This document shows, piece by piece, positions 25,622 to 26,258 of a stretch of DNA of 42,657 nucleotides (positions within the stretch are counted from its first letter, which is position 1; each line of letters starts with the position of its first letter). The position numbers and the translations under genes were made by a program. The notes under the pieces were generated by a model that was not told the origin of the DNA, did no database searches, and saw only the letters and a list, made by a program, of their open reading frames with translations. The stretch is from an uncultured Mollicutes bacterium (GTDB lineage: Bacteria; Bacillota_I; Bacilli_A; Acholeplasmatales; Anaeroplasmataceae). The stretch lies in NCBI GenBank assembly GCA_947174785.1, contig CAMWKG010000015.1:1-42657 (forward strand), given 5' to 3'.

Positions 25622-25688
25622 TATCTTGCATGATATTCCCTATCTTTTTATGAACTTTTCAAGTATTTCATTTCAAGATTACTAAGTC

Positions 25689-26003
25689 TTATTTCTTAGT
25701 ATTTTTCTTAATCTTTTCTACTTTTTTCTTATCACTATCTGAAAAAAACCATCCTTTCAACTTTGCACCAAAGGTACTTCTATGAGCTTCATCAGGTATA
25801 GGTCTTAAATATGCTTGGCTCTTATTTCCAGACTCTGGATTTTTTTCAAGAGGTATATTTTCCATTTCATCCGTTATTGCAGCATGTGTAATACCTATAA
25901 AAATAAATTTTTTACCTTTTTGAGCATAAATATATGTTGGATGGGCACCAAATTTTTTATCATTGGCTTTTCTAAATTCATTTCTTTTAATTTCCTTTGA
26001 CAT
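25689..26003 (-). CDS. Conserved hypothetical protein, 104 residues, basic C-terminus
   Basis: The start at 26003 (MSKEIKRNEFRKAND) is supported by GGGAGGATTTTAAA; an open frame runs 41 codons further upstream through a candidate RNA gene and has no ribosome site. The protein is soluble, with HPTYIYAQKGKKFIFIGITH and later FGAKLKGWFFSDSDKKKVEKIKK. It has an unusually regular, conserved-looking character, but I cannot name a family. It is transcribed away from the candidate small RNA at 26054-26166, whose -35 box lies only 17 bp from this ATG, so the two units may be co-regulated. Small hairpins overlap its stop codon. Confidence 0.6.
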   Translation of the reverse strand: MSKEIKRNEFRKANDKKFGAHPTYIYAQKGKKFIFIGITHAAITDEMENIPLEKNPESGNKSQAYLRPIPDEAHRSTFGAKLKGWFFSDSDKKKVEKIKKNTKK

Positions 26004-26019
26004 TTTAAAATCCTCCCTG

Positions 26020-26047
26020 TTGACAATAATTTCAATTATGATAAAAT
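26020..26047 (+). promoter_or_regulatory. Promoter of candidate small RNA
   Basis: TTGACA (26020-26025), a 16-nt spacer and TAAAAT (26042-26047). There is no ribosome site or convincing ORF downstream, and a terminator follows about 110 nt later. Confidence 0.65.
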
Positions 26048-26053
26048 ATAAAT

Positions 26054-26166
26054 ATAAAAAGGTTATGCAAAGAACGAACTTATGAGTCGGCTGGTCGATA
26101 TTATCGCAGTGTGTAATCCTGGTCATGTGCGGTTTTTATTCCGAGAGTACCAGGTCCTTTTTTTAT
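26054..26166 (+). ncRNA. Candidate structured small RNA (no family recognised)
   Basis: A near-consensus promoter starts a GC-richer segment of about 110 nt in an AT-rich gap. One hairpin is CTG-GT-CGAT with ATCG-CAG near 26090-26109. A second is CCTGGT (26118-26123) with ACCAGG (26149-26154), with CGG/CCG inside, followed by a T-run at about 26158-26166 that would end the transcript. GGCTGGT upstream can also pair with the ACCAG arm, so alternative folds are possible. A 63-codon plus-strand ORF across it starts without a ribosome site and looks spurious. I could not match it to SRP RNA, 6S, tmRNA or a known riboswitch by eye. Confidence 0.5.
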
Positions 26167-26258
26167 TTATAAGAAATAATTATTTTCCCTTCATATTAAA
26201 TAATTACCAAAAAGGGTTTATTTTTTATATTCAATTTCTAAAGAAGTTAAAAAGGCAT

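Follow-up and report, generated by a model that had tools for sequence, protein, structure and literature searches.

A small RNA and a MazF-fold protein of a gut Mollicutes bacterium that look like part of an unrecognised toxin family restrained by RNA

Introduction

A short RNA with a near-consensus promoter, placed back to back with the gene of a small protein that matches no known family, raises the question of what the two are to each other. Such a pair lies in the window, the stretch of 42,657 nucleotides analysed here, which belongs to the 1.84-Mb draft genome (G000:C15) of an uncultured Mollicutes bacterium from the gut. An earlier note made from the letters of the window had reported the RNA as a candidate of unrecognised class, divergent from an orphan protein of 104 residues. 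The pair now looks like part of an unrecognised toxin family restrained by RNA, in which about 30 relatives of the protein have the same kind of RNA partner. We regard it as moderately probable that RNA and protein form a type III-like toxin–antitoxin module with a new protein family, a single-unit RNA and an opposite-strand layout. Our search of the open-access literature found no description of the family.

The locus

The features of the locus are as follows.

25689..26003, minus strand: gene of the 104-aa MazF-fold protein, probable endoribonuclease toxin (from dN/dS, AlphaFold2 and Foldseek)
26010..26017, minus strand: ribosome-binding site GGGAGGAT of the protein gene (from the sequence)
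26020..26047, plus strand: RNA promoter, with −35 box TTGACA at 26020-26025, a 16-nt spacer, TG at 26039-26040 and −10 box TAAAAT at 26042-26047
26054..26166, plus strand: small RNA of about 110 nt and proposed antitoxin; the promoter gives its probable start and the U-tract its probable end
26054..26110, plus strand: variable 5' domain of the RNA, in its long form in the window
26111..26168, plus strand: conserved 3' domain and terminator, with P1, P2 and U-tract (covariance-model matches)
26118-26123 / 26149-26154, plus strand: P1 stem of the 3' domain, CCTGGT / ACCAGG
26130-26132 / 26141-26143, plus strand: P2 stem of the 3' domain, CGG / CCG
26118-26164, plus strand: U-tract terminator hairpin, U-tract at 26158-26164
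26056..26162, plus strand: possible closing helix, AAAAAGG 26056-26062 / CCTTTTT 26156-26162, present in the minimum-energy fold and in the alignment consensus

The TTGACA-16-TAAAAT promoter of the earlier note is borne out: it carries 11 of the 12 consensus bases and a TG extension, and is joint best among the seven promoter-like sites of the region. Its −35 box indeed lies 17 bp from the ATG of the protein, at 26003 on the minus strand. The RNA had also been described as a complete unit with a T-run terminator and no credible ORF. The U-tract hairpin ends it as proposed, and it holds no conserved ORF, a 1-nt loop indel changing the frame between the window and the closest copy and the ATG being absent from the short forms described below. 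No Rfam family matches it, in agreement with an unrecognised class; an RprA-like match (E 2.5, far under the gathering score) is ascribed to chance. No tandem array was found in it past AAATAT repeated 2.5 times. The possible closing helix has a counterpart in the RNAs of distant homologues and is imperfect in one of the close copies (G007b). The folding energy is no better than that of shuffled sequences (z = −0.12), and the case for the RNA therefore rests on comparison.

On our own reading of the sequences, the two neighbours of the protein gene are of cupin type: downstream lies an XRE-cupin gene, and upstream a gene for a 107-aa cupin that has its own terminator. No MazE-type antitoxin gene stands next to it, and the XRE neighbour also occurs where the protein is absent. 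Since no promoter was found close to the start of the protein gene, the 5' leader of its mRNA may be antisense to the RNA. An inverted repeat, TACTAAG/CTTAGTA (25678-25705), spans the stop codon of the protein; it occurs in the window only, being absent from L002 and L003, and is probably a plain terminator.

Conservation and linkage in the genus

The covariance search suggested by the earlier note returned exactly five copies of the RNA in 160 genomes of the order (E 1e-13 to 1e-19) and nothing else above chance. The copies belong to four species of the genus, namely G000 (the window), G007 with two (G007a and G007b), G009 and G006. The co-occurrence of RNA and protein, which the note had also proposed to check, is borne out: four copies adjoin an intact protein gene, those of G007 forming two tandem pairs, and the promoter is kept in all four; the fifth, in G006, lies beside the remnant of a deleted protein gene and its promoter has decayed (TGCCAA...TAAAAA). 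The remaining genomes of the genus have neither RNA nor protein. The site is accessory, as G004 and G005 have xre directly beside mntP and G002 has another gene there. The covariance model also gave a weak, chance-level match in G004 (E 0.018), at the terminator following glyA (L092:1500-1550, G004:C9; AATCCTGGTTATGTACGG...CATACCAGGTTTTTT). This terminator resembles the 3' domain of the window RNA and has no family protein nearby.

The 5' domain exists in a long form (window and G007a) and a short form (G007b, G009 and G006), and a four-pair stem within it is kept in four of the five copies. The switchable fold once suspected, in which GGCTGGT would compete with CCTGGT for ACCAGG, does not withstand this comparison: GGCTGGT is confined to the long form, that is to the window and one copy, all three short forms lack it, and CCTGGT/ACCAGG is kept. 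Compared with its G009 counterpart, the 3' domain of the window RNA (26111-26168) is identical at 56 of 56 positions, gaps aside, against 66-74% identity in the promoter region, the 5' domain and the spacer that follows the RNA, and beside a dS of 1.54 for the protein gene. In G006, a C-G pair of P2 has become U-A. Covariation within the clade is modest: pairing holds in 93% of cells, both bases have changed in two of the pairs, and 10 of 500 shuffles reach the score, for five sequences only; it is supportive of a conserved structure, from few sequences.

These data bear on the simplest account of the locus, that the RNA is a plain terminator or an unrelated small RNA whose closeness to the protein is coincidental. 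The ordinary folding energy and the small clade of five copies would suit such an account. An ordinary terminator needs no conserved loop or flank, but here loop and flank are conserved along with the stem, and above the neutral level. Together with the co-occurrence of RNA and protein and the family-wide association presented below, this makes coincidence highly improbable.

A predicted MazF fold

The protein had been called conserved-looking and orphan, and both descriptions stand: it is under purifying selection (dN/dS 0.10-0.29) and has no match in Pfam, NCBIfam, PHROG or PADLOC, nor to the PF02452 profile. Plasmid records, phage records and viral contigs contain no relatives of it. Its AlphaFold2 model (pLDDT 86) was compared with the PDB by Foldseek, and the best 50 matches listed all belong to the MazF family (S. 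aureus, B. subtilis, M. tuberculosis), the best with E 6.5e-4 and TMq 0.63. A paralogue encoded in the same genome (G000:C23), about 25% identical, likewise gives MazF with AlphaFold and Foldseek, and matches in a viral library are PemK-like/endoribonuclease. Profile comparison by hhalign with the true MazF of the order was not significant (probability 0.2), though in the expected register, and homology to MazF therefore rests on the fold. In that register H21-P22 falls at Arg25-Pro of MazF and T39-H40 at Thr48 (HP...TH on RP...TS). Arg25 and Thr48 form the catalytic pair of MazF (PMC7354611); among 32 family members the His at the Arg25 position is invariant and the Thr at least 90% conserved. 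As modelled, the protein is a probable MazF-fold endoribonuclease toxin.

Because His stands in place of the catalytic Arg, the protein may instead be a non-catalytic RNA binder. One could then imagine a non-toxic RNA-binding or RNA-processing protein that matures the RNA or uses it to regulate other genes, a role that the very strongly conserved 3' domain would fit as well. We hold it to be improbable. The patchy accessory distribution, the tandem copies, and the cases of degradation and loss resemble selfish or defence modules; the RNA sequences differ between clades, so that there would be no common target; and the conserved 21-mer of the RNA, searched for base-pairing targets, has no other match in the genome on either strand with up to three mismatches.

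Homologues and their opposite-strand RNAs

Searches of the order and the phylum gave about 30 further family members, often in tandem or scattered copies and present in 27 of 392 phylum genomes, the genomes compared being mostly drafts or MAGs. A long-looped hairpin stands at the 3' end of the gene in 19 of 30 members, against 10 of 103 control gene ends. It was at first thought to be a 3'-UTR hairpin on the toxin mRNA, an idea dropped as promoter and U-tract lie on the opposite strand. The homologues have a small RNA on that strand, usually convergent at the 3' end of the gene; this family-wide pairing, like the MazF fold, had escaped the earlier note. A near-consensus promoter (TTGACA-17-TATAAT in L044, TTGACA-17-TAGAAT in L020) is followed by an RNA that begins with a closing stem, contains one or two inner hairpins and ends in a U-tract, such as UUUUUUUAUUU, which is the antisense of the A-rich gene end with its stop codon (...AAATAAAAA).

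The combination of opposite-strand promoter, closing helix and T-run was found at the 3' ends of 25 of 30 homologues. Of 109 control gene ends 8 had it as well (p 5.7e-16 by Fisher's test), and two of these eight proved to be further family members; the controls were ORFs with a length of 110 codons or more from the same loci, with some from other loci. A promoter score of 10 or more, taken alone, is reached by 19 of 33 against 4 of 104 controls (p 5e-11). The true MazF genes of the order showed no such RNA at their ends. The closing stems of the homologues have changed on both sides with pairing kept, in alignments of only three or four sequences. In a search of 160 genomes, one RNA type and its protein proved to be paired one-to-one, two chance-level matches aside; matches of the R2 covariance model at E 0.02-0.06 were at chance level. 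RNAs of different clades have a common architecture and no common sequence. At L047:496-1812 (G380:C12) and just beyond, three tandem family genes each have their own opposite-strand RNA, and a fourth RNA (GCTTAGCG/CGCTAAGC stem) lies by a decayed gene end, having outlived its gene like that of G006.

The window RNA fits this architecture loosely, being longer and divergent; its span and the imperfect closing helix cause the automated family criterion to miss it. The RNA of the window clade is divergently oriented at the 5' side of the protein, and no convincing RNA of the family kind was found at the protein 3' end, where an automated match in two copies is AT-rich and falls on the promoter region of the regulator. 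It may have moved to the 5' side, or it may descend from a tandem array in which one gene was lost. With a chance that we put slightly above even, the family is a widespread unnamed class in Anaeroplasmataceae and their relatives: MazF-fold proteins of about 100 aa with an invariant His for the catalytic Arg, each partnered by a structured RNA of a single unit, which is encoded on the opposite strand and takes its U-tract from the antisense of the A-rich gene end and stop codon, the window clade being a divergent version.

The opposite-strand position, common to every clade, could also mean that the RNA is a type I-like antisense repressor of the toxin mRNA, through 3'-end overlap in most homologues and through a long 5' leader in the window, provided that the mRNA start lies on the far side of the RNA gene; the failure to find a protein promoter near the start agrees with the latter. 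Type I antitoxins that overlap the toxin gene 3' end exist, and yonT/SR6 of B. subtilis, whose opposite-strand RNA also has its own promoter, is the nearest antisense parallel (PMC5848175). Its toxin, however, is of another kind, and the window-clade RNA, with its conserved structure, has no overlap with the gene and cannot reach the 3' end of the mRNA. Antisense pairing needs neither a near-perfect looped 3' domain nor compensatory stem changes. Most of the type I toxins known are small peptides of hydrophobic character, unlike MazF folds. An antisense repressor therefore seems rather improbable to us.

Proposed mechanism and comparison with known systems

Direct binding of the RNA to the protein is preferred over antisense action because the position of the RNA relative to the mRNA varies by clade and its structured nature is constant. 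A MazF fold without a protein antitoxin, a strongly promoted RNA alongside in many species, the patchy accessory distribution, the tandem copies and the decay of the protein in G006, where the RNA can still be recognised, together suggest that the RNA neutralises the toxin. That RNA antitoxins can accompany toxins of MazF fold is well established (PMC5086642). In the module that we propose, the 104-aa protein would be a toxic MazF-fold endoribonuclease, and the RNA, which its near-consensus promoter would supply in excess, would fold compactly, end in the terminator hairpin and keep the protein inactive by binding to it directly, in the way that ToxI acts on ToxN. Should the supply of RNA stop through locus loss, infection or stress, the more stable protein would be freed and cleave RNA. 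In the wider family the RNA gene would work from the opposite strand at the toxin gene 3' end, with the antisense of the gene end as U-tract; the window clade would be a divergent case at the 5' end.

Type III systems (ToxIN/AbiQ, CptIN, TenpIN) share with the pair a MazF/Kid-fold toxin (here predicted with AlphaFold2 and Foldseek for two members), a small structured RNA beside the gene in place of a protein antitoxin, and an RNA apparently promoted more strongly than the toxin. Known type III antitoxins consist of repeats upstream of the toxin gene on the same strand, under one promoter and with a terminator before the toxin gene (PMC5086642). In contrast, the window RNA is a single unit free of tandem repeats, lies on the other strand under a promoter of its own and displays no demonstrated pseudoknot; the protein falls outside ToxN, CptN and TenpN, with no match to a Pfam toxin, NCBIfam or PADLOC, and the RNA is not an Rfam antitoxin. 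The module would thus work like type III and is not a member of it as defined, because repeats, common promoter, same-strand order and a known toxin or RNA family are all missing.

In AbiF-RCd22 of Clostridioides difficile the associated RNA neutralises the toxin by direct binding (PMC12373285), and the binding of a neighbouring RNA proposed here would be analogous. AbiF, however, belongs to the Abi_2 family and has structural links to Cas13, not a MazF fold, whereas the 104-aa protein has no Pfam match. MazEF/PemIK of type II resemble the pair in predicted fold and in the H-P and T-H that the alignment places at the Arg25-Pro and Thr48 positions; they differ in that the module has no MazE/PemI gene and no PF02452 match, and has His for the catalytic Arg.

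If the proposal is correct, RNA antitoxins would pair with MazF-fold proteins far more divergent than ToxN, CptN and TenpN, and a search that looks for tandem repeats on the same strand would overlook the genetic layout. A MazF-fold gene with an opposite-strand promoter and a terminator at its stop codon could serve as a search rule, and the RNA–protein pairs offer a natural series for the study of co-evolution.

Other conserved stretches beside family genes

Three further observations concern sequences upstream of family genes. A conserved stretch of about 170 nt on the gene strand precedes the G000:C23 and G009:C43 paralogues (L021 ~1822-2020, L020 ~1831-2030), between a ybaK-like and the toxin-like gene; it contains a TATAAT box and a hairpin with T after it (AGCGTGATTG...CATCACGCTTTTT), and the L021 copy has no Rfam match. 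The stretch may serve the paralogue as leader or attenuator. Upstream of position 1821 in L018, the G002:C20 paralogue has several repeats of the TACCTGG / CCAGGTA type, unlike its relatives. In L013 and L016, about 170 nt are conserved upstream of position 1432, between an integrase and a family gene; this stretch carries a promoter-like TTTGACA and may represent a leader or else a second RNA.
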